From a virus, in the IMG/VR virus record IMGVR_UViG_3300046616_000314, positions 124,001-188,000 of that record: a stretch of DNA of 64,000 nucleotides; one strand, written 5' to 3'. Every line of letters starts with the position of its first letter. The first letter of the stretch is position 1. Below are positions 1 through 62,093 of this stretch, in pieces. The notes under the pieces were generated by a model. It was given only the letters and a program-made list of their open reading frames with translations, was not told where the DNA came from and searched no databases. The translations under genes and the position numbers were made by a program.

Positions 1-247
1 TGGCATGAGTAAAATTGCCACCAAGGGCATACATGATGGCGTATGCGATATCGGATGTAATATAGACGCGCCCGGCAACAGGAGCAAGCATACCCTTGCC
101 TTGGGTCTCGCGACCTTTCAGACCTTCGGTAGCAACGACATTGGCTGCACGAGTCGATGACGTGCCGTGATAGTACGTTTTTGCACGAACGTTATCGTCC
201 GGTGCAGCCTCGTCAATTTCGGTACCAAATAATTCGTGAAAACGCAT
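1..247 (-). CDS. ADP-ribosyltransferase-like virion protein, 3' part outside the window
   Basis: The first 82 codons are present and the gene runs off the left edge. Residues 26-29 read YHGT, followed near residue 65 by VYITSD and an alanine/tyrosine-rich helix; this is the usual start of ADP-ribosyltransferase (ART/PARP-like) folds. The N-terminus MRFHELFGTEIDEA resembles T4 capsid-targeting peptides, with a possible prohead-protease site after I-D-E (residue 13). A late-type promoter lies 4 nt before the ATG. Inference: an enzyme packaged in the head and injected. The catalytic glutamate is not in view, so activity cannot be judged. Start chosen from the promoter position and the tag. Confidence 0.75.
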   Translation of the reverse strand, partial: MRFHELFGTEIDEAAPDDNVRAKTYYHGTSSTRAANVVATEGLKGRETQGKGMLAPVAGRVYITSDIAYAIMYALGGNFTHA

Positions 248-12573: not shown

Positions 12574-12759
12574 ATGCCTAGACTGACCAGTGCCGAGTAT
12601 CTTCGCGCCTACAAAGAAGGTCAGCAAGCTTTCGCCAACATGCTTCAGTGCAGCGATAACCCATACACCGCTCTCATGGATGACCAATTTTTCGGCTGGG
12701 AAAATGGTTGGGTTGACGATCAGCAAGCCGCCTGGGATAAACTGATAGAATCGTTTTAG
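12574..12759 (+). CDS. Rmf/CrpP-like small protein (61 aa)
   Basis: ATG 12574 with GGAG 6 nt upstream. The pattern A-Y-x-x-G-x-x-A...N-P-Y...G-W-x-x-G-W (AYKEGQQAFANML, DNPYT, FGWENGWVDDQQAA) is that of the ribosome modulation factor / CrpP-like family, whose members bind ribosomes or act as small regulatory proteins. Inference: it could alter host ribosomes. It overlaps the convergent ART-like gene by 4 nt. The match is by motif only. Confidence 0.65.
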   Translation: MPRLTSAEYLRAYKEGQQAFANMLQCSDNPYTALMDDQFFGWENGWVDDQQAAWDKLIESF

Positions 12760-13349
12760 TACAGACGAGATTTCTTTTTCGTATCTTTGTCTAAACGAAG
12801 TTTGGCGATCACTGCATCTTGTATTTGCTTGGCAGGCTTCCCGTCCACATAGAGTAATGGATGGTCAAAGATCGGAGAATATTGGTGTGGTCCATCAAAT
12901 TCTTCAGGATGATCAATATGATAGATGACGTGTTTCATCATTCTCTCATATTGGGTCATAACCATTTCTAAGCGAATGATATATCGACTCACGTTGTTGA
13001 TGGGTCCGATTACAAACTCTTCCGCTTCGGTATATTCGCCCTCGCGCGTGTATGGCGTAGGCTCGTAAAAACTCTTCTTCTCATCGGTGTCCCAGTAATC
13101 GACGGGCGAGATTTTGTAGTTGTGTGACAGGCGCCGTTGGTCCAGCACGAACACTACGGCTCCGAAACCATGGGCGATACGCGGGCTCCGCGACAGGCTT
13201 ACGCCATTAATGTCGTCCAAGTCCATGTTGGAATGGCTGGTTCGATCCGCCATTTTATTCTGTTTGAGAATGAGCAAAGCACCACCGAACGTCGTCCCAT
13301 GATACAGGGGCGCGTCTCGTCCTTCACATAGAATCTCATGAATAAACAT
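12756..13349 (-). CDS. Capsid-targeted ADP-ribosyltransferase-like protein (197 aa)
   Basis: LYHGT (residues 15-19), a following helix (GGALLILKQNKM), GVSLSRSPRIA near residue 50 and an acidic TEAEEFVIG near residue 110 match the H-Y-E order of ART folds. The N-terminus MFIHEILCE-GRD is tag-like, with a possible prohead-protease site after L-C-E. It starts directly after the gp13 stop (TAAATG), so it is cotranscribed with a structural gene. Inference: injected effector that modifies a host target, similar in concept to T4 Alt. Target unknown. Confidence 0.72.
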   Translation of the reverse strand: MFIHEILCEGRDAPLYHGTTFGGALLILKQNKMADRTSHSNMDLDDINGVSLSRSPRIAHGFGAVVFVLDQRRLSHNYKISPVDYWDTDEKKSFYEPTPYTREGEYTEAEEFVIGPINNVSRYIIRLEMVMTQYERMMKHVIYHIDHPEEFDGPHQYSPIFDHPLLYVDGKPAKQIQDAVIAKLRLDKDTKKKSRLY

Positions 13350-23580: not shown

Positions 23581-23724
23581 ATGCCGAACACCGCCGCTGG
23601 TCGTCAGCAAGCCTATCTCAAGTCGCAATCGGTCGATGATCTGAAGGCGGGCATTCGCAGCCTGCAACCGGGCGAAATGCGTTCGATCTTGGAAGACGAA
23701 CTGCAACGCCGCCTGAACCCCTAA
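23581..23724 (+). CDS. Small hypothetical protein (47 aa)
   Basis: MPNTAAGRQQAYLKSQSVDD then helical to RRLNP. Strong GGAG site 11 nt upstream of ATG. It ends TAATG into the ATPase gene, so translation is coupled; it may be a partner or regulator of that ATPase. No family recognised. Confidence 0.72.
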   Translation: MPNTAAGRQQAYLKSQSVDDLKAGIRSLQPGEMRSILEDELQRRLNP

Positions 23725-24458
23725 TGTTTATCAAGGGGCTCCGCTGTACGGGATTTAATAGTTGGTTCAGCACCGACATTAAATTCACGAAGAATACCTG
23801 CATCATTGGAATGAATGGTGCAGGTAAGACAACGGTCCTGAACCTGCTTGCCGGTGTCATGGGGACACCGAACGCCAATGAATTGATTGAAGGGCGTCCG
23901 ATCACGTCTTGTGAAATCGACTTCATTGACGACGATGGCAATGAACGTACTTTCTCTATGAAGAACAAAAATCAGTTCGACATGGATGAGATCACCGAAT
24001 TCAAAAAGACCCTGTACAACAAGGTGAGTTTCATTCTCACCAGTGACACATTCGATGACTACTTCGTTGGTCGTCGGGCTGATGGCGTTGAGAACTTTCA
24101 ACGAATGCAGCAAATTTTGGAAGGCATGGACCACATGCATTTCAATAACCAGAACACACGTATCGAAGGGAAGACCTACCAGGGCTTCGTATCCGAGACC
24201 GGGGCGCAACGTTATTTGCTGCACCTGTTTATGCGAATGCCCCCTGAGACTGGCGTTCCCATTCTGGTTGATGGTCCCGAACGCCATCTGCATCCTTCGA
24301 CGCAACGCACGCTAATGGAAACCATTCGTCACGTCGAACAGTTTATCTTTACATGCCATAGCCCGTTCATGCTGTCGGAATCGCGCCAGGGGCGTGAAGG
24401 TAGAAGCACGATCATCGATCTGGCAACGGGAAAATCGTCTGATTTTTTTGACGATTAA
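23724..24458 (+). CDS. ABC/RecF-type AAA ATPase with changed Walker B (244 aa)
   Basis: Walker A GMNGAGKT (residues 29-36); Walker B and D-loop near residue 190 as ILVDGPERHLHP; an H-loop-like FTCHSPFML near 215. The usual family sequence is D-E-P-E-x-H-L-H-P, so the catalytic glutamate position is glycine here. There is no Toprim or other fused nuclease. Such stand-alone ATPases occur in phages and defence systems. It may bind but poorly hydrolyse ATP. It ends just before the tRNA promoter. Confidence 0.75.
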   Translation: MFIKGLRCTGFNSWFSTDIKFTKNTCIIGMNGAGKTTVLNLLAGVMGTPNANELIEGRPITSCEIDFIDDDGNERTFSMKNKNQFDMDEITEFKKTLYNKVSFILTSDTFDDYFVGRRADGVENFQRMQQILEGMDHMHFNNQNTRIEGKTYQGFVSETGAQRYLLHLFMRMPPETGVPILVDGPERHLHPSTQRTLMETIRHVEQFIFTCHSPFMLSESRQGREGRSTIIDLATGKSSDFFDD

Positions 24459-27519: not shown

Positions 27520-27840
27520 ATGTCCGATTCGCCTGCTTATCGCCTGGGATTCTTTGGGCTCTGCGTCGAAGACAACCACAACAAGGTGTGGGGTTGGATT
27601 GTATCAACGAGCGGAAATCGTTATTACATTTTTTGGGGCAAGGCTGGCGCCAAGAAACTAAGTATGGCGGAACGCAACGTTGGGCAAATTAATAACCTAG
27701 TGCGCGAGAAACAATCGCTAGGTCGTAAGAACGGAACCTACGTCGCGGTTCATAAAGACCATGTTGAGCAAGCCTATCCCAATTTCTGGGAACAGCTTGA
27801 AGAACAATTCTGCTTCATGAGGCTGAAGGCTAAGATTTAG
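27520..27840 (+). CDS. WGR-like small protein (106 aa)
   Basis: AGGAG 7 nt before ATG. VWGWIVSTSGNRYYIFWGKA followed by GAKKLSMAERN fits the strand-W-G-(K/R)-x-G pattern of WGR domains, which in PARPs bind nucleic acid ends. The last residues FCFMRLKAKI could be a remnant of the family tail. It overlaps the convergent large gene by 11 nt. Tentative. Confidence 0.55.
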   Translation: MSDSPAYRLGFFGLCVEDNHNKVWGWIVSTSGNRYYIFWGKAGAKKLSMAERNVGQINNLVREKQSLGRKNGTYVAVHKDHVEQAYPNFWEQLEEQFCFMRLKAKI

Positions 27841-30217
27841 TCCGCGAGAGATTGGTCTTCAGAGCCGTAGGCAAACGCAGTTCCAATTCAGCGATAACAT
27901 CCTTGAGAGCTTGGCGTTGCGTATTGGATAGGTTCGGAGCAATGTTCAAGATTTTTTGACGAGCCGCCGAACTATCTAGATAGCTAGATTCGGTTGTCAT
28001 CATTTCCTTGAATTCATTACCTTCCATTACGCCATAGTACCAAACGGTCGATGACCATGCTGGCTTGATAGCAGCATGGAAGACCTGTAGCCCGGCATAA
28101 TGACCCATGGGCGTAGCGACTTCACTGATAGTTTTTCCGGTCTTGTGCGTGCTCTCGTTTCGGATAAGCCCAAATACCTCAAGGTCACTCGTTTGGAGAT
28201 TGCTCCCTAGTTTCAATTTGTGTTGCTTTACGAATTTAAGCAAATCAAAATTGCCTGCTTCTAACGCATCTTCAAGACGACGTTCAGCGGCGTCATGATA
28301 TGATGATGACTTGAAACGATTCTTTTGAGTTTTGAATCGTTGATAACGACTTACTGTACCGCTGACCGAAGTGATTTCATCTTTGTCATTCACAATGACA
28401 AGCCACGCCAGATCACTCCAACGCTCGATTTTACCAACGCGGTCTGGGGCTTCGCCATTTAGTGCGAGCGTTATATAATACGACTTTGGAGCATCCTCGC
28501 CAGGGCTAGGAATTTTCCAAATTGGATCGTTGCCAAGTTTGCCGAGGCTTTCGCTAAACTCTTGGAAGGGCTTCCACTCGCCATTGACGAAAGTGACACC
28601 TAGTGTTTCTGGCATATGAACAGCCCAACTTTCACAGAAGAAATGTTGATCATTAAAATAATCAGCGATTTCTTTTGCATATTTTGTGAACAATGCGGGG
28701 TCGCCGTTTGGCTTTTTCATTGCCGAAATCTTATTGTTATTGACTTCGGTCAGAGGCATAGTCTCGCCATCGATGGTGATAGAAACGGCATCACCTTCGC
28801 GCTGAATGGAAATATCTCCATACTGTTTAGCAAACGACTCACCCTTGGATGCAACAGAGATACCTAGATAATTAGCGATCTCTTCCATGTTCATGCGACC
28901 ATTGCCGCGAACGCGCTTGTCGGTTGATGCCTTCTTGAAAATGTTTTGAACTTGATCGACTTGGACCGGGCGAGCGCGTTGCTTCGACCAGAATTCATCC
29001 ATGAAAGCAAACACTTTATCCATGTAGCTTTTCTTGGTGTTGAAGCTGAACGTTTTCTCGTTGGCGGCTTCCAACGACTTGACCAACAGTTGCGCGGTTT
29101 TCTGAGACATTTCCTCAGTGAACGGTAGCTTGAAGCGATCAGCGATAGCTTTGATACGCTCAATTTTTTGAGCCAGCTTCGGACCATATTCTTTTTCGTA
29201 GCTGTATTCGTCGCCACGATGCGGCTCCACATTTTTGAAACGCTCTGCCATATCGGCGGCGATTTCAGTGAATGAAGCCGTATTGTCGTACTGAACTTTG
29301 ATCGGCTTGAAGCCTGGACCTTGAAGCGTGACCGCCATCTTTGAAGCCGTGGATTCAGTATTTTCGCGATGCTTGCGCATGAACGAGTAATCCTTGTCTA
29401 GGATAACGACGATCTTGCGCTTAGCAGCGGTGTAATAAGTTGTCTCGTGTTCGCCACCAACCGCATTCGAAGACACGAGGCGGTCGCCAATAGCTTTGGC
29501 GATCATGGCGGGGAGGCGTTGTAGTTGTTCGGTGTGATCAGCCGAGCCGATCTCAGCTTGCGTTGCCGCGCGATTTCGTAGTTCAAATACGTCGATCACC
29601 TTGAAAGCAGAACGCTTCATGAAGACAATTTGTTCGGGTTCGGCGCGATAGATAATAGCTTCATGTTCTGATCGCGATTTGTCCTCTAGCGCATCGATTC
29701 CTGCTTTCAGGAAGAACGCCGTTTGGGTCGCGTTGTCGTGTTTAACCTTTTGACCGACCTGGGTATAGGACTGCACAACGGCAAAGAACGCTTTTGCGAT
29801 GATATTGCCTTGTTGGAACTGACCCACACGTTGGATCATGTTCATTTTTTTCTCAGGATCGGCAATGCCCATCTTGGTCAGAATCGAGATAGCGGTGTCT
29901 TTGGTCAGGTCGTTGAGAACGAGCTTATGAGCCGACGTGTCTTGGATGACGCGCAGATAGCGGGTCTGTTGTCCGTACTGAATGTCGGCGGGGTGATTAA
30001 GAACGTATTCCAGCGGATAGGCGTACAAGCCCGCCGGGTCCGAGTGATTGGGAACCGGAGAGAAATTACGATCCAGAGTGTTACCGGCGTGATCGCCAAA
30101 ATTCACATATAAATCTTGGCGATGAGCCAAGGGCATATACTTCTTGCGGAAAGCTTCGAACGTCTTCGGAAAGAAGTCCGCAGCGTGAATTTCATTGAGG
30201 ATTTCGTATGCGCGCAT
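27830..30217 (-). CDS. Large capsid-targeted protein with YAYPL/EPxQ domain (795 aa)
   Basis: N-terminus MRAYEILNE-IHAAD is tag-like with a protease site after L-N-E. The first 210 residues (AGLYAYPLEYVLNH, then RAEPEQIVFMKRSAF) share a domain with the 459-aa protein at 60714. Later parts are helical with a region around residue 520 (ADYFNDQHFFCESWAVHMP) and a charged C-terminus. A late promoter lies 4 nt before the ATG. Inference: an internal head protein injected with DNA. The Y-x-Y-P-L and E-P-x-Q elements could be part of an ART-like fold, but I cannot show this. Confidence 0.7.
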   Translation of the reverse strand: MRAYEILNEIHAADFFPKTFEAFRKKYMPLAHRQDLYVNFGDHAGNTLDRNFSPVPNHSDPAGLYAYPLEYVLNHPADIQYGQQTRYLRVIQDTSAHKLVLNDLTKDTAISILTKMGIADPEKKMNMIQRVGQFQQGNIIAKAFFAVVQSYTQVGQKVKHDNATQTAFFLKAGIDALEDKSRSEHEAIIYRAEPEQIVFMKRSAFKVIDVFELRNRAATQAEIGSADHTEQLQRLPAMIAKAIGDRLVSSNAVGGEHETTYYTAAKRKIVVILDKDYSFMRKHRENTESTASKMAVTLQGPGFKPIKVQYDNTASFTEIAADMAERFKNVEPHRGDEYSYEKEYGPKLAQKIERIKAIADRFKLPFTEEMSQKTAQLLVKSLEAANEKTFSFNTKKSYMDKVFAFMDEFWSKQRARPVQVDQVQNIFKKASTDKRVRGNGRMNMEEIANYLGISVASKGESFAKQYGDISIQREGDAVSITIDGETMPLTEVNNNKISAMKKPNGDPALFTKYAKEIADYFNDQHFFCESWAVHMPETLGVTFVNGEWKPFQEFSESLGKLGNDPIWKIPSPGEDAPKSYYITLALNGEAPDRVGKIERWSDLAWLVIVNDKDEITSVSGTVSRYQRFKTQKNRFKSSSYHDAAERRLEDALEAGNFDLLKFVKQHKLKLGSNLQTSDLEVFGLIRNESTHKTGKTISEVATPMGHYAGLQVFHAAIKPAWSSTVWYYGVMEGNEFKEMMTTESSYLDSSAARQKILNIAPNLSNTQRQALKDVIAELELRLPTALKTNLSRTKS

Positions 30218-31102: not shown

Positions 31103-31110
31103 GCTAAATA
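31103..31110 (+). promoter_or_regulatory. Late-type promoter of the Acb1-like gene
   Basis: GCTAAATA ends 4 nt before the ATG at 31115; it is divergent to the early-type promoter of the minus operon. Confidence 0.55.
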
Positions 31111-31114
31111 TCGT

Positions 31115-32191
31115 ATGCGCGCATTCGAACTGTTTGAAGAAAAGAAAACCCTCTACGTCTCTCGTAAGCTGAAGAACGGCGAGGCGTTAGTGAAATGGGC
31201 TAAGGATCAAGGCTTTACTGAATGCCTAGCCCCATCGGAAATGCATGTCACGATTGCATATTCCAAGAGCAAGATCGAATGGAGCGATATGACTTCAGCC
31301 GAGAAAGAGCTTACGGTCAAAAAGAAATCTGGCAAGCGTAAGATCAAATGTTTCGGGGAAGACAAAAACGCAGTCGTTTTGGTTTTCGATAGCGAGGAAC
31401 TTAAGGATCGCTGGAAAGAATTTAAAGATGAGCTAGGGGCATCCTGGGACTTCCCGACTTATCATGCTCACGTAACCATTACCTACAACGGTCTTCCCGA
31501 AGGTGTGAAGCTCAAAGACATTACGCCCTATGAGGGTCCTTTGGAATTTGGTCCCGAACGCAAGTCGGAGATCACCAAGGATTGGAAGGGTAAGACCAAG
31601 ACGAAGAAACTCACGGAATCATTTCGTCTGGCTGACGTAGATACCGAAGAACTGTACCAGACCTTCAAGAAATCCTATGAAGCCGAAACGGGCGCAAGCT
31701 GGTCTAAGGACAAGATGCTAGAGCGGGCGCGCAATTGGGAATTCTTCGGAGAACCTACAGGCTTCGTTGCGATTCGTCGGCAAGCCTCTGGGATGGTGAA
31801 ACTCGTTGCTACGGCAGGCGACTTCAAAGGCATCATGCGCGGCTTCTCAGAACTTCAGAACGAGGGTGGTCCGTTGTGGGGCGCCGTCTCTAATCAACTA
31901 GCGAGAATCGCCAAGAGCCGGGGTATGATCGTGCCTCACCTGATGCCGGGTGGTCCGACCTTCATTAAGCTGATGGTTCCCATGATCCCGGCAGCGGTGT
32001 TCGGTGGGTTCGAACCAAAGATCAATGACGATGGTGGCATGACATTTGAGTATGATGATGTAGGGGCAGCTACCAAGTATTTGATTGGTAACAAAGAATA
32101 TTTCAAAATGGCTATTGCCAATAACAATCTTTCATCGTATATTTCAAAGGTTCCTGGGTTGAAACAATTCCTAGCTTTGATTGGATTATGA
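31115..32191 (+). CDS. acb1: Capsid-targeted 2H phosphoesterase, anti-CBASS Acb1-like (358 aa)
   Basis: Residues 1-9 (MRAFELFEE) form a capsid tag with a possible cut after L-F-E. Residues about 12-150 are an Acb1-type 2H phosphoesterase: TLYVSRKLKNGEALVKWAK, EMHVTIAYSK (H44, T46) and YHAHVTITYNG (H119, T121), with ASWDFP before the second motif. Acb1 of T4-like phages cleaves the cyclic nucleotides that activate CBASS defence. Residues 180-358 form a second, unassigned domain (NWEFFGEPTGFVAIRRQASG). The late-type promoter 4 nt upstream fits a virion protein. Inference: the enzyme is injected with DNA to pre-empt CBASS. Confidence 0.8.
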   Translation: MRAFELFEEKKTLYVSRKLKNGEALVKWAKDQGFTECLAPSEMHVTIAYSKSKIEWSDMTSAEKELTVKKKSGKRKIKCFGEDKNAVVLVFDSEELKDRWKEFKDELGASWDFPTYHAHVTITYNGLPEGVKLKDITPYEGPLEFGPERKSEITKDWKGKTKTKKLTESFRLADVDTEELYQTFKKSYEAETGASWSKDKMLERARNWEFFGEPTGFVAIRRQASGMVKLVATAGDFKGIMRGFSELQNEGGPLWGAVSNQLARIAKSRGMIVPHLMPGGPTFIKLMVPMIPAAVFGGFEPKINDDGGMTFEYDDVGAATKYLIGNKEYFKMAIANNNLSSYISKVPGLKQFLALIGL

Positions 32192-36121: not shown

Positions 36122-37474
36122 ATGATTCGACTGCACAATTCGTTGTCACGGAAGTTGGAAGACTTCAAGCCGATTGATTCTAATCGGGTGACGATGTACG
36201 TGTGTGGTGCGACCGTTTATGACACCCCTCACCTGGGTAACGCCCGTCCTGCTGTTGTGTTCGACGTGCTGTTCCGGCTGTTGCAACACGCCTATCCCTT
36301 GGTTGAGTATGCGCGAAACTTCACTGACGTTGATGACAAGATCATCGCCCGGTCGAACGAATCCGGCGAACCCATCAATGAACTGACTGAACGGGTCATC
36401 CGCGAGTATCACGCCAGCATGGATGCGCTGGGCGTGGCGCGACCGACTTATGAGCCGCGCGTGACGGGCAACATGGCTCCGATCAAGGGCATGATCTCTG
36501 AACTGATTATGTCGGGGCACGCCTATGTCTCTGAAGGTCATGCACTATTCGACGTGAAATCATTCCCGTTGCATGGATCATTGAGCGGACATCTTCAAGA
36601 AAACTTGGATGTTGGACACCGCGTGGCTGTTGCCGACTATAAGCGCGATCCGGCGGATTTCGTTTTGTGGAAGCCTGCCAAGGAAGGCGAGCCCGCTTGG
36701 GACTTCCCTTCGGTTAGTTCGGGTCGCCCTGGCTGGCACATTGAATGCTCCGCGATGATCAAAAATGTTTTCGCGGACAACACCATTGATATTCATGGCG
36801 GCGGCGCGGACCTTCGGTTCCCGCATCACGAATGCGAAATGTCACAGAGCCATGCGGCGAATGGTCATCATTTAGCTAACTACTGGCTGCACAATGCCAT
36901 GGTTACGCTTGGTGGAAGCAAGATGCAAAAGACGGGTAGTCATATGATTACTGTCGATCAAATTTTGCGAAACAATGATGGGGCTTCAGTTCGCTTTGCA
37001 TTGCTGTCAAGCCATTATCGGTCGCCTCTGGATTGGTCGCCAGAACTACTCGAAAACAGCCATGGGACGCTTGCTAAGTGGCATAAGCTACTTTCGGCGA
37101 GCGATGCTCCTGCGGAGGCTAACAACGTCTCTACGGCGATCCTGAAGCCTCTGTATACCGATCTGAACGTCCCTGGCGCGGTGGGTGCAATCCATAACGC
37201 GCTGGCGACTGTCACGGATACGGTTGCCGCCGGGGTTCGCTATGCTGCTTCGGTCATGGGCTTCGATCTCAGTCAGGAAGCCAACCTAGCGTTCTTGAAG
37301 GAACCGGAGTTGGAGCCGCAATTGGTTCTGGAAATCGAGCGTTTGCTAGGCGAACGGGCTGTTGCCAGACAAAATAAAAATTTTGCGGAATCGGATCGGG
37401 TTCGCGAACTGATCGCCAACATGGGGGTCGTTGTGGAAGACGGTCCCGAAGGCACGACGTGGAAAGTCAAATGA
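36122..37474 (+). CDS. cysS: Cysteinyl-tRNA synthetase (450 aa)
   Basis: Class I synthetase: CGATVYDTPHLGNARP with C28 as zinc ligand and HLGN as the HIGH motif (residues 37-40), GWHIECSAM and HHECE for the other zinc ligands, and KMQKT (for KMSKS) near 265. The size fits bacterial CysRS (about 460). It attaches cysteine to tRNA-Cys. A tRNA with a GCA-type anticodon loop lies at 62315, but with G73 and not the U73 usual for Cys. A phage-encoded CysRS is uncommon. Cotranscribed with lipoproteins upstream. Confidence 0.92.
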   Translation: MIRLHNSLSRKLEDFKPIDSNRVTMYVCGATVYDTPHLGNARPAVVFDVLFRLLQHAYPLVEYARNFTDVDDKIIARSNESGEPINELTERVIREYHASMDALGVARPTYEPRVTGNMAPIKGMISELIMSGHAYVSEGHALFDVKSFPLHGSLSGHLQENLDVGHRVAVADYKRDPADFVLWKPAKEGEPAWDFPSVSSGRPGWHIECSAMIKNVFADNTIDIHGGGADLRFPHHECEMSQSHAANGHHLANYWLHNAMVTLGGSKMQKTGSHMITVDQILRNNDGASVRFALLSSHYRSPLDWSPELLENSHGTLAKWHKLLSASDAPAEANNVSTAILKPLYTDLNVPGAVGAIHNALATVTDTVAAGVRYAASVMGFDLSQEANLAFLKEPELEPQLVLEIERLLGERAVARQNKNFAESDRVRELIANMGVVVEDGPEGTTWKVK

Positions 37475-44997: not shown

Positions 44998-45432
44998 ATG
45001 AGTTGGGATGCCAGATGGCTCTCACAAGCGGAACACTCTGCAAGTTGGAGCAAAGATCGAAGCCGACACGTCGGCGCGGTCATCGTGAGAGGCGATATTG
45101 ATATTTCGAAAGGCTGGAATGGTTTTCCACGCAAGATTAACGACGAAGTTGACGAAAGACACGAACGTCCGCTGAAATATCTTTGGACGGAACACGCCGA
45201 AAGAAACGCAATCTATAACGCTGCAAAGCATGGTTTCGCGACTGACGGTTGTAGAATTTATCAGACTTTATATCCCTGCGCACATTGCGCCCGAGCCATT
45301 ATTCAATCGGGCATAATCGAAGTCATCACAACCGAACCGGATTGGAATGACCCGACCTATGCCGAAGAATTTAAAGTAACTAAACAGATGCTCGCGGAAG
45401 CATCAGTAAGTGTAAGGTTTTTAGATTTATGA
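44998..45432 (+). CDS. dCMP/cytidine deaminase family protein (144 aa)
   Basis: HAERNAI (H66, E68) and LYPCAHCARAI (C94, C97) form the zinc site of deoxycytidylate deaminase, which makes dUMP from dCMP for thymidylate synthesis. RSRHVGAVIVRGD and GWNGFPRKI are typical substrate loops. Length fits the short form without allosteric inserts. ATGA overlap with the AAA+ gene. Confidence 0.85.
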   Translation: MSWDARWLSQAEHSASWSKDRSRHVGAVIVRGDIDISKGWNGFPRKINDEVDERHERPLKYLWTEHAERNAIYNAAKHGFATDGCRIYQTLYPCAHCARAIIQSGIIEVITTEPDWNDPTYAEEFKVTKQMLAEASVSVRFLDL

Positions 45433-47507
45433 GCAAGCTTTTCGTTGAAAAAGTAATGTTGAACCTTCTCACCACTTGGAGAGAAACGTTCTACTACGAA
45501 AATCTGGTGCGTCGGGCTATGCACCACGGCGCGGGTCTCTTTGACCTGGGTGGTGTGTCATCGGATTGGCGTGAATTCCTGACCAACAAGCGCAACGCTC
45601 ACGTCGCGATCTTGGAAGCGCGAGGCGATAGCCGCGCGTCGAGCTACGACTATCTGGTTCCGATCACTGAATACCTCGACAAGTCGGACATGCAAACCGT
45701 GTACGACATGATCACGGGTAGCAAGCCGGAACTGAAGGAAGACTTCGTTCTGGACGCCAATATTGAACTGTTGGGCGGTCTGCTTGAACTGACTCCGATG
45801 GAACGTCTGGTTCTGCAAATGTCGGCGGAAATGCAGGAATTGGAATATCCAATGTCCGATATGTTCCAACGTCTGAATCACGATGACAAGATGCTGGACC
45901 CGGCTCTTGCCTATTCGGTCCTCTTTGGTAAGGCGGAATCGGAATTCAAGAACATCAGCAAGAGCTTCCTGCTGAACAGCGGCATTCTTCAGACGAACAT
46001 CGACTACAAGTATCTTCATCAAATCAATGAAGAACTGGTAGATTCGTTCACGGATAAGAAACTGACTCTGGATACTCTGGACGCAGTTTTGTTCCCGAGC
46101 GACATGAGCGCGAATCTGGACCTGACTTGCTACTCGCACCTGTCCAAGGAAATCGAGCGCACCGAACGTGTCATCCAAGTTTCGTTGGACGAAAAGAAAA
46201 TCGGTACCAATGTCATGTTCTGGGGTATCCCCGGTACTGGCAAGACCCAACTGGCTCTGACCCTGGCGAAGACCCACGGCTGGGACTTGAAGGTCATCGG
46301 TGACATTTCGAAGAATGATGCGACCGAAAAGAGCCGTGCGCAACGCATCGCTAGCTTGAAGATCGCGATGAAGCTGTATGCGGGCAAACCCAATACGGTT
46401 CTGTTGTTCGATGAAATGGAAGACCTGTTCAAGCACGACACGAACGCCGTGTTCTCGAAAGCCTTCATCAACCGCATCGTGGAATCCACTCCGGTTCCGA
46501 TCATCTGGACGACCAACGATCTGATCTCGCTGGGTAGCGCGGTGCTTCGCCGTATGACCTACAACATCGCGTTTGAAATCCCCACGCTTTCGGCTCGCCG
46601 CAAGATTTGGGAAAAGCATAGCGCGGACTACAAGGTTGATATCGACGCCGATACGATTTCGTCTCTGGCGACGAACTACAACATCGTTCCGGCTCTGATC
46701 GAAAACGCGGTCAAAATTTCTTCGTCGGCTGGTCTGGCTCACGCCGAATTGCCTGATATCGTCACGTCGCTGGATCGACTGATGAATTATGGTGAGAAGC
46801 GTAAGTTCCATATCACCACTAAGAAAGACACTCCGTATAGCCCGAAATGGGCTAACACTGATCTCGATTTGGACGATCTGACTTCACGTCTGACCAAAGC
46901 CAAACCGAATTTCAGCCTGTGTCTCTATGGTGCGCCCGGTACGGGTAAGAGCGAATATGGTCGTTATCTGACGGATAAGATCGGTAAGCCGCTGCTGTAC
47001 AAGCGTGCCTCTGATCTGATCAGCATGTGGGTTGGTGAAACTGAGAAGAACATCGCGCGTTGTTTCGAGGAAGCCAAAGAAGAACAAATGGTTCTGCTGA
47101 TTGACGAAGGTGATACTTTCCTGCGCTCTCGCGAAAACGCGAAAAATAGCTGGGAAGTCACTCAAGTCAATGAAATGCTGTCGCAAATGGAATCCCATTC
47201 GCAACCGTTCATTCTGACCACGAACTTGATGAAGGAACTGGACCCGGCGGCTATGCGTCGCTTCACCTTCAAGATGAAGTTCAACTTCCTGCGTTCTGAC
47301 CAAGCTGTCGAACTGTTCCAAGCGTATTTCGGAGTGGAAGCCCCCAAGGCAATCCTCACGAATGAAATCTTGGCTCCGGGTGACTTCGCCAACATCAAGC
47401 GTAAGACGGATATCCTGGGCATCACCGATGCCGAAGAAATCTACAAGATGATTCTTGAAGAATGCGCTCTGAAGCCGGATTCCCCGCCGCGCAAGCTGGG
47501 CTTCTAA
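45429..47507 (+). CDS. Tandem AAA+ ATPase (692 aa)
   Basis: Helical N-terminal 230 residues, then two AAA+ cores: GIPGTGKT (266-273) with LLFDEM (D328, E329) and WTTND; GAPGTGKS (501-508) with LLIDEG (D559, E560) and LTTNL. Both cores keep Walker A and B acidic residues. Tandem AAA+ proteins usually form hexamers that remodel or unfold proteins. The substrate is unknown. Highly regular codon use. Stop is followed by a terminator. Confidence 0.85.
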   Translation: MSKLFVEKVMLNLLTTWRETFYYENLVRRAMHHGAGLFDLGGVSSDWREFLTNKRNAHVAILEARGDSRASSYDYLVPITEYLDKSDMQTVYDMITGSKPELKEDFVLDANIELLGGLLELTPMERLVLQMSAEMQELEYPMSDMFQRLNHDDKMLDPALAYSVLFGKAESEFKNISKSFLLNSGILQTNIDYKYLHQINEELVDSFTDKKLTLDTLDAVLFPSDMSANLDLTCYSHLSKEIERTERVIQVSLDEKKIGTNVMFWGIPGTGKTQLALTLAKTHGWDLKVIGDISKNDATEKSRAQRIASLKIAMKLYAGKPNTVLLFDEMEDLFKHDTNAVFSKAFINRIVESTPVPIIWTTNDLISLGSAVLRRMTYNIAFEIPTLSARRKIWEKHSADYKVDIDADTISSLATNYNIVPALIENAVKISSSAGLAHAELPDIVTSLDRLMNYGEKRKFHITTKKDTPYSPKWANTDLDLDDLTSRLTKAKPNFSLCLYGAPGTGKSEYGRYLTDKIGKPLLYKRASDLISMWVGETEKNIARCFEEAKEEQMVLLIDEGDTFLRSRENAKNSWEVTQVNEMLSQMESHSQPFILTTNLMKELDPAAMRRFTFKMKFNFLRSDQAVELFQAYFGVEAPKAILTNEILAPGDFANIKRKTDILGITDAEEIYKMILEECALKPDSPPRKLGF

Positions 47508-60713: not shown

Positions 60714-62093
60714 ATGCGTATTGCTGAACTTTTTGAAAACGTGCTTCTAGAGCAAATCGATATGCGCAAGGCATTAGAGAAATACGCCAATGATCCGTCT
60801 ATCTATGTATCATACACGAATTTACCAAAAATTGGAATCAATCCGAAGTTTGACTTCGGGACACCACTAGGCATCTATGCCTATCCGCTGCGGAATATGT
60901 GGTTCGACATCAAATCGAACGATGTCCCATTCGGCGGTAATCGCAAATATATTCAAATTCTGAAAGCCGGTCCTTCGGTTATCAAAGCCGAGACTTACAA
61001 TAACTTCGAAGCAGACTGCCGGAAACTATACGATTTGTATGGCAAGGAATTTATTTCGAAATACAAAGATGCTTCCGATCCAGAAAAAATATGGAAATTC
61101 TTTGTGGATCACGCAAGCCAAGACGCCGAACACTACCATAATGGCACGATGCCAATCGTTCATTTGTGGGGACTCACACACAAATTAGCTAATTTTCTCG
61201 CGCCAGATCAGCGCAGCGGGCTTACCGTAGTGACGAAATGGAATTCAATTTTTCGTGCTTTGGGCTATGGTGGTATTTCGGATGGCGGTATGGGTTTGAT
61301 CCACGCCAACGAGCCTGCACAAGTAATTTTCTTTTCTAAGAGCGCGTTCCAGCATATCGGAATGGTAGACAACGTTCGAAAGATCACACAAGACCTTTCC
61401 AACCACGAGATCGAAGATTTGAACGATCTCATTGAAATCATAAACGAATATTGGGTAGACCACGATAGTTCAGATCGTGATGTCGGGGCAGAAGGCAATG
61501 CTGCTAAGATGCTACACCAAGCCGTAGCAAACGAATGGCTTGATCTGTTCAAGACAGGTTCGACCGCGCATTTTAAAATCAATGATCTTCATACGTTTTG
61601 GTCCAGCGTCACGATGAGTGAATTCAAGCGATTTGCTAGAATGCTATTGAAGCAGGGCAAGCCGGGTACCGTTGCCAAACTGATTCAATTGATCAAAGAA
61701 TTCCCGCAACTCGACACGTCGATCAGCAACATCGTGGAACTTGCGGCGAAGACACCTGGGGTTCGTATGAACCGCGCAGATTTCGATGCTCTCTACGATC
61801 CTGAATTCACAGAGAAAGCGGATAAAGAGGGCGTAAGCTTGCGCTATGATCGCAACGAAATCATTCTTCGTCAGGCGGTTGCGCAGTTGGTCAGAGGCGA
61901 GCAATTCAATTTGCGTCGTGCTGCTGAAAAAATGAAAGACAAACTACCGTTGGACTACGGCAAGAAAGTCACACCCGAAGACGTGAAGAAATTCCTGGGC
62001 GCCAAATATGCCCAAAAAATTGCTATGGAGTTTGAAGATTCGAGTATCGAACAGATGATCGAACGCGAACGCCGTAGATGGGTGTTCGCTTAA
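60714..62093 (+). CDS. Capsid-targeted protein with YAYPL/EPxQ domain (459 aa)
   Basis: N-terminus MRIAELFENVLLE-QID is tag-like with a possible cut after L-L-E. The first 220 residues (PLGIYAYPLRNMWFDI; GLIHANEPAQVIFFSKSAF) match the N-terminal domain of the 795-aa protein at 27830. The rest is helical and may bind nucleic acid (basic end). Late promoter 6 nt upstream. Inference: internal head protein. The shared domain may be enzymatic, but no catalytic set is certain. Confidence 0.72.
   Translation: MRIAELFENVLLEQIDMRKALEKYANDPSIYVSYTNLPKIGINPKFDFGTPLGIYAYPLRNMWFDIKSNDVPFGGNRKYIQILKAGPSVIKAETYNNFEADCRKLYDLYGKEFISKYKDASDPEKIWKFFVDHASQDAEHYHNGTMPIVHLWGLTHKLANFLAPDQRSGLTVVTKWNSIFRALGYGGISDGGMGLIHANEPAQVIFFSKSAFQHIGMVDNVRKITQDLSNHEIEDLNDLIEIINEYWVDHDSSDRDVGAEGNAAKMLHQAVANEWLDLFKTGSTAHFKINDLHTFWSSVTMSEFKRFARMLLKQGKPGTVAKLIQLIKEFPQLDTSISNIVELAAKTPGVRMNRADFDALYDPEFTEKADKEGVSLRYDRNEIILRQAVAQLVRGEQFNLRRAAEKMKDKLPLDYGKKVTPEDVKKFLGAKYAQKIAMEFEDSSIEQMIERERRRWVFA

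Follow-up and report, generated by a model that had tools for sequence, protein, structure and literature searches.

Does a giant phage carry its own anti-CBASS enzyme in its head, ready to act when its DNA enters the cell? The question is raised by an open reading frame (ORF) of 358 codons at 31115–32191 (+), which lies in a window of 64,000 nucleotides (the whole stretch of DNA analysed here; positions 124001–188000 of a virus record of 561,116 bases, a giant phage of 561 kb). The ORF joins a short N-terminal tag to an Acb1 domain, a linker and a GNAT-like domain. The order of tag, Acb1 and C-terminal domain had been reported in an initial annotation made from sequence alone, and is confirmed.

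A search for phages carrying near-identical DNA at this locus returned zero matches, and PADLOC and NCBIfam searches of it likewise gave 0. Single-sequence structure prediction reached a pLDDT of only 40, and a model built from 31 aligned sequences (mean pLDDT 88.8) was used in its place. The window also codes for an ABC/AAA_15-type ATPase at 23724–24458 (+), a phage-encoded cysteinyl-tRNA synthetase at 36122–37474 (+; Pfam E = 5.9e-107), a dCMP-deaminase-like protein at 44998–45432 (+) and an AAA ATPase at 45429–47507 (+).

An Acb1 domain and its C-terminal partner

Residues 11–159 (31145–31591, +) form an Acb1-type 2H phosphoesterase domain. They match Pfam PF23474 (Acb1) with E = 1.4e-37 and 129 bits against a curated cut-off of 27, and pLDDT is ~90 or more across nearly the whole domain. 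The top PDB match of the model in Foldseek is FBB1 Acb1 (7t26/7t27; for 7t26, E = 6.6e-9, prob 1.00, TM 0.77 by target), followed by a Burkholderia phage phosphodiesterase. By phmmer, the closest solved sequences are the Acb1-bearing C-terminal part of the Pam3 portal (6.6e-20) and FBB1 Acb1 (2.1e-7). The three approaches thus agree on the Acb1 context first proposed for this protein. Plain LigT identity was set aside, as the generic LigT Pfam match to the same domain (E = 0.056) falls below its cut-off, against 1.4e-37 for Acb1.

The two HxT motifs of the catalytic tetrad, H44-V-T46 (31244–31252, +) and H119-V-T121 (31469–31477, +), align to those of T4 57B and lie exactly where the initial annotation had placed them. 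In the same alignment Y14, F113 and W157 are the counterparts of the T4 base-stacking residues Y12, F107 and W147 (residue roles in T4 Acb1 are taken from PMC9117128). T4 W74 faces a non-aromatic residue, and the adenine-reading E141 faces S151, with E152 adjacent; since neither aligns, the substrate range could differ from that of T4 Acb1. The domain is therefore like the Acb1 of T4 (57B) and FBB1 in its 2H fold, both HxT motifs, the Y12/F107/W147 equivalents and its size, whereas it differs in the tag in front, the GNAT-like domain behind, the late-type promoter and the unaligned W74 and E141.

These features bear on a first alternative, in which the protein is packaged but its 2H domain acts on RNA 2',3'-cyclic phosphates or on another nucleotide, serving RNA repair or take-over at entry rather than counter-defence. 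RNA-end processing is known for 2H enzymes, LigT (well behind 7t26) and Usb1 appear as secondary fold matches, T4 W74 and E141 are unconserved, and PHROGs labels this family (phrog_755) ‘RNA ligase’; each of these favours such a role. Against it, the Acb1 Pfam family and 7t26 rank far ahead of LigT in both sequence and structure, and the lid tryptophan and the stacking aromatics are retained. We regard a non-CBASS role as unlikely, and favour an Acb1 that would act on the CBASS signal.

The C-terminal domain (residues 176–358; 31640–32188, +) had been described as separate and unassigned. The separation stands, but the lack of assignment does not, as the modelled fold resembles GNAT acyltransferases. 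GNATs are numerous among the Foldseek matches, 4pv6, 1xeb and 1q2y included, at modest scores (TM 0.5–0.57 by target, E ≥ 2e-3), and on this model the domain is assignable as GNAT-like. Sequence searches of Pfam, PHROGs and the PDB with this domain, including a PDB profile search, gave 0 matches, and none was found in a scan of GTDB genome contigs. Where GNATs carry the acyl-CoA loop Q/R-x-x-G-x-G/A, the region reads, by eye in the alignment, AG[DN]x[RK]SxxKG, and is diverged. Relatives of the domain occur on other tagged giant-phage proteins (contigs L003, L012–L016 and L024, the L numbers being our contig labels), L012 among them, and also in a 735-kb phage. In L013–L016 the T4-like MFTFREFLVE tag comes first, then a head that is possibly ADP-ribosyltransferase-like, a repeat region and this domain, while in L024 it stands alone behind the tag MKILELLYE, within a run of tagged genes.

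The tag, its promoter and the tagged gene set

The ORF begins with a capsid-targeting-like tag, MRAFELFEE (31115–31141, +), that ends in a hydrophobic-x-E site. The predicted cut (↓) is LFE8↓E or FEE9↓K, and orthologues read LFE↓A. Of the earlier claim that a tag is cut after L-F-E, the tag holds, while the two cut positions are indistinguishable from sequence. The window holds 3 copies of the strict pattern M-x-x-x-E-[LIM]-[LF]-x-E, whereas shuffles yield 0.15. For the relaxed form MR..E[LIM][LIFVM] the genome has 14 matches and the reversed control 3. Twelve of these 14 relaxed matches start ORFs of at least 123 aa whose bodies are mostly unrelated, and together they resemble one tagged set, with the common start MR..E[LI][LFI]. 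In several of the tagged ORFs the site reads LIE↓A, ILE↓A, ITE↓G or LFE↓E/K.

The promoter context points the same way. A late-promoter-like CTAAATA lies at 31104–31110 (+), 10 nt before the ATG. Among ORFs of at least 80 aa that we picked ourselves, and not from a curated gene set, TAAATA is found 10–12 nt ahead of the start codon in 10 of 12 tagged ORFs and in 4 of the 111 other ORFs of the window (Fisher p = 4e-10); 12 of the 20 TAAATA sites in the window lie upstream of an ORF and no more than 60 nt from it, the expected number being 1.1. A Shine-Dalgarno-like stretch is present in only 18 of 111 ORFs. With TAAATA at this distance, the mRNA would start at or beside the ATG, and so be leaderless, if T4 spacing applies. 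TAAATA-type sites 10–12 nt ahead of start codons are also seen in L020–L022. The suggestion that a late-type promoter fits is borne out at the level of sequence, and the tagged genes may be expressed late. Because the same start recurs on 12 ORFs with mostly unrelated bodies, 10 of which carry TAAATA, the tag is, by these sequence counts, a real feature, more than chance. A chance origin was accordingly set aside, given the enrichment over shuffles and the reversed control together with the promoter association.

Several tagged ORFs share domains of their own. A ‘GINP..TP.GIY.YP ... NEP.Q’ domain marks a large family of tagged giant-phage proteins that is absent from Pfam and has about six members in this genome. 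The divergent neighbour of the Acb1 gene (27830–30217, −; 795 aa, tag MRAYEILNE, its own TAAATA 10 nt upstream) bears a diverged ‘GINP..TP.GIY.YP’ domain. A 459-aa protein at 60714–62093 (+), which starts MRIAELFENVLLE↓Q with TATAAATA 12 nt upstream, has a ‘GINP’ domain that matches a tagged protein in L022 at 1e-26. Further members are encoded in L022 (2–1507, −), L120, L123–L125, L024, L033–L035 and L003, and a ‘GINP’-family protein at C1:116399 carries the identical MRAFELFE. We consider this family likely to be a new family of head-delivered effectors.

A second group starts with a YHGT/YHRT-type sequence after the tag and is possibly ADP-ribosyltransferase (ART)-like; no Pfam match was found for these tagged proteins. 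It comprises a 197-aa protein at 12756–13349 (−; MFIHEILCE↓G, possibly ART-like, LYHGT), L022 1510–2247 (−), L119 and L013–L016. The 12756–13349 protein has a paralogue elsewhere in the genome that starts MRFHEIITE↓G. At the edge of the window (1–247, −) begins another tagged protein, of 245 aa and with the N-terminus MRFHELFGTEIDE↓A; it is possibly ART-like, has TATAAATA 10 nt upstream and runs past the window.

Predicted cut sites, head genes and relatives

The same genome encodes a T4-type S77 prohead protease (5.5e-27) and a gp23-like capsid protein (7.8e-78). The N-terminus of the capsid protein holds an apparent cut, RLME↓SATAG, near the position of the T4 gp23 cut, and the protease has an apparent cut of its own, LIVE↓A, both being read by analogy. 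In the 358-aa protein a possible second prohead-protease site, L166-T-E168↓S169 (31610–31621, +), lies at the end of the interdomain linker. Aligned over four orthologues it reads KKLTE↓S, KKLDE↓S, KKVNE↓S and KKVNE↓S (KK[LV]xE↓S), and linker residues 161–167 have pLDDT below 50 and are disordered in the model. An internal copy of a tag, TFKKYLMLKE↓S, sits at the matching place in L013–L016. As LTE168↓S is conserved at a disordered linker, Acb1 and the GNAT-like domain may come apart during maturation, and on the strength of this site the prohead protease probably splits the two payloads.

Capsid-targeting sequences are classical in T4 (PMC5694885). T4 Alt, whose N-terminus is MELITELFDED, and IPI–III likewise carry a short N-terminal peptide ending in hydrophobic-x-E that is removed by the S77 prohead protease. 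For Alt, a packaged protein, cleavage is documented at ITE-6 and also at an LTE within the chain (PMC5694885), and the latter parallels LTE168↓S. T4 IPI is moreover a head-delivered counter-defence protein (PMC5694885), the role proposed here for Acb1. The payloads differ, being an ADP-ribosyltransferase and a restriction inhibitor in Alt and IPI and a predicted cyclic-nucleotide phosphodiesterase here.

Scanning IMG/VR with an alignment of Acb1 sequences yielded 551 relatives, and 80 of them were retained. The three best of these 80 (L033, a 415-kb contig, L034 and L035) have a tag, Acb1 and the same C-terminal domain; their Acb1 parts are 51–55% identical to that of the 358-aa protein, and their tags read MKIEDLFEA↓K, MKITELFEA↓K and MKIIELFEE. 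No full-length orthologue has lost the catalytic tetrad or the lid residues, the one change being a serine in place of T121 in L033. In all three contigs a ‘GINP..GIY.YP’ protein is encoded directly upstream of the tagged Acb1 gene, its counterpart in the window being the tagged divergent neighbour. The L033 and L034 orthologues have extra domains inserted. Between Acb1 and the GNAT-like domain, L034 (4001–5959) has a YunG-like insert (weak, E = 0.007), and both L033 and L034 have a ‘GLWDGWHR’ stretch that by eye resembles ParB-type domains. An S77 protease was not found in L033–L035, which may be fragments; two of the three are short.

Aeromonas phage phiWae14 carries a T4-style tag, MIRSFSEFITE↓AAE, ahead of Acb1. 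It also encodes an S77 protease (E = 1.9e-72), and its capsid protein is probably cut at RLAE↓A. As read from its sequence, it is an independent second case of a tagged Acb1, with the tag worded differently. A search of phiWae14 for F-x-E-F-x-x-E tags matched the Acb1 gene alone, and no tagged suite was found. Among the 60 nearest non-redundant Acb1 ORFs, 33 match Pfam portal families and four each match S78, XkdF-type S78_2 and MuF, and as these fusions dominate, this branch of Acb1 is mostly tied to heads.

These comparisons weigh on a second alternative, a late, cytoplasmic Acb1 that is never packaged and acts late in the same cell, as in T4, the start peptide having been spread by duplicated promoter-plus-start modules. 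Tag and promoter do travel together, so that what the genes share could be an expression cassette that was duplicated, and T4 Acb1 works without known packaging (PMC9117128). The tag, however, is kept at the protein level across contigs, is reworded in phiWae14 and retains its hydrophobic-x-E ending; the same genome encodes a T4-type protease, and its capsid protein has a cut site to match; and related Acb1 domains are located on head proteins. We judge such an unpackaged enzyme improbable.

The notion that the protein is mainly a structural or core part of the giant head, with a degenerate or incidental 2H domain, is very improbable: T4 core proteins are likewise cut by the prohead protease (PMC5694885) and many tagged proteins share the C-terminal domain, but the tetrad and lid residues are kept in the full-length orthologues (save for the L033 serine) and the gene lies outside the phage's head gene cluster.

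Proposed head delivery and its antecedents

The preferred reading is that of a head-loaded counter-defence protein, which we consider probable as a whole, from late expression through to destruction of the CBASS nucleotides. The tag very probably loads the Acb1 protein into the virus head. Following late transcription from the TAAATA-type promoter, MRAFELFEE would dock the protein in a T4-like prohead core, where the S77 protease would cut behind the tag and, probably, at LTE168↓S as well. Inside the head, Acb1 (~160 residues) would then be a free enzyme, separate from the GNAT-like domain (~190 residues), and both would leave with the DNA at ejection. Once in the new host, Acb1 would open CBASS cyclic di- or trinucleotides through the metal-free chemistry of its two HxT motifs, so that the cell-death effector would never be triggered during the time that precedes the first newly made phage proteins. 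From docking onward, every step (packaging, cutting, ejection, catalysis and timing) is one that we infer; what computation shows is the domain make-up, the family of tags, their association with the promoter, the conservation in relatives and the presence of protease and capsid genes. The initial annotation's interpretation, a packaged anti-CBASS Acb1, is supported, all of its parts that can be tested in silico having come out in favour.

The benefit would be one of timing. T4 Acb1 activity starts only ~15 min into infection, from enzyme made after infection (PMC9117128), as had been stated for T4-type Acb1; the advantage of head delivery would therefore be earlier action. If the model is true, the injected enzyme would hit the alarm signal before any phage gene is read, and whether counter-defence is timed by packaging would become directly testable.

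Head delivery of Acb1 is not new as an idea, since fusions to portal and MuF proteins exist and their injection has been predicted. Iyer and colleagues proposed that MuF- or portal-fused 2H domains are probably packaged and injected, countering oligonucleotide signalling (PMC9503650). In portal-, MuF- and prohead-protease-fused 2H/Acb1 proteins (for example, those of the Pam3 portal, phiPSA1 and Rhizobium phages) a closely related Acb1 domain is likewise tied to the head. Here the domain is joined to a cleavable targeting tag and not to a shell or portal protein, so that the enzyme could be loaded in soluble form and then freed.

A further likeness is to the polyvalent or multidomain head-delivered effectors of Iyer et al., which, as cited in PMC9503650, place several effector domains on one head-associated chain, as is the case here; like them, the L033 and L034 orthologues insert further domains. 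Compared with those effectors as they are described there, the present protein differs in its T4-type tag delivery and in the conserved predicted cut site between its payload domains. Among the titles, abstracts and passages of the open-licence literature that we searched, no paper joining Acb1 with a capsid-targeting tag was found. What appears to be new is delivery by a tag, the pairing of two payloads and a set of tagged genes that spans the genome; put differently, the enzyme and the type of signal are each known, and their combination, within a larger tagged gene set, is one that we did not find described.

A wider reading, for which we put the chances as even, is that the cleavable head tag is a general export signal of giant phages for at least a dozen effectors, one of which would disarm CBASS at time zero, after the prohead protease has released it and a second, GNAT-like effector from a single chain. 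The rule of MR..E[LI][LFI] plus TAAATA offers a way of listing, from sequence, the effectors that giant phages would inject; most of these are unannotated.

Packaging is not known for T4 Acb1 itself. The N-terminus of T4 57B, MMEFKDFST, is tag-like but lacks the E of the cut site, and the T4 acb1 gene (57B, L143 153–611) adjoins ipI (L144 592–879), the gene for a packaged internal protein.
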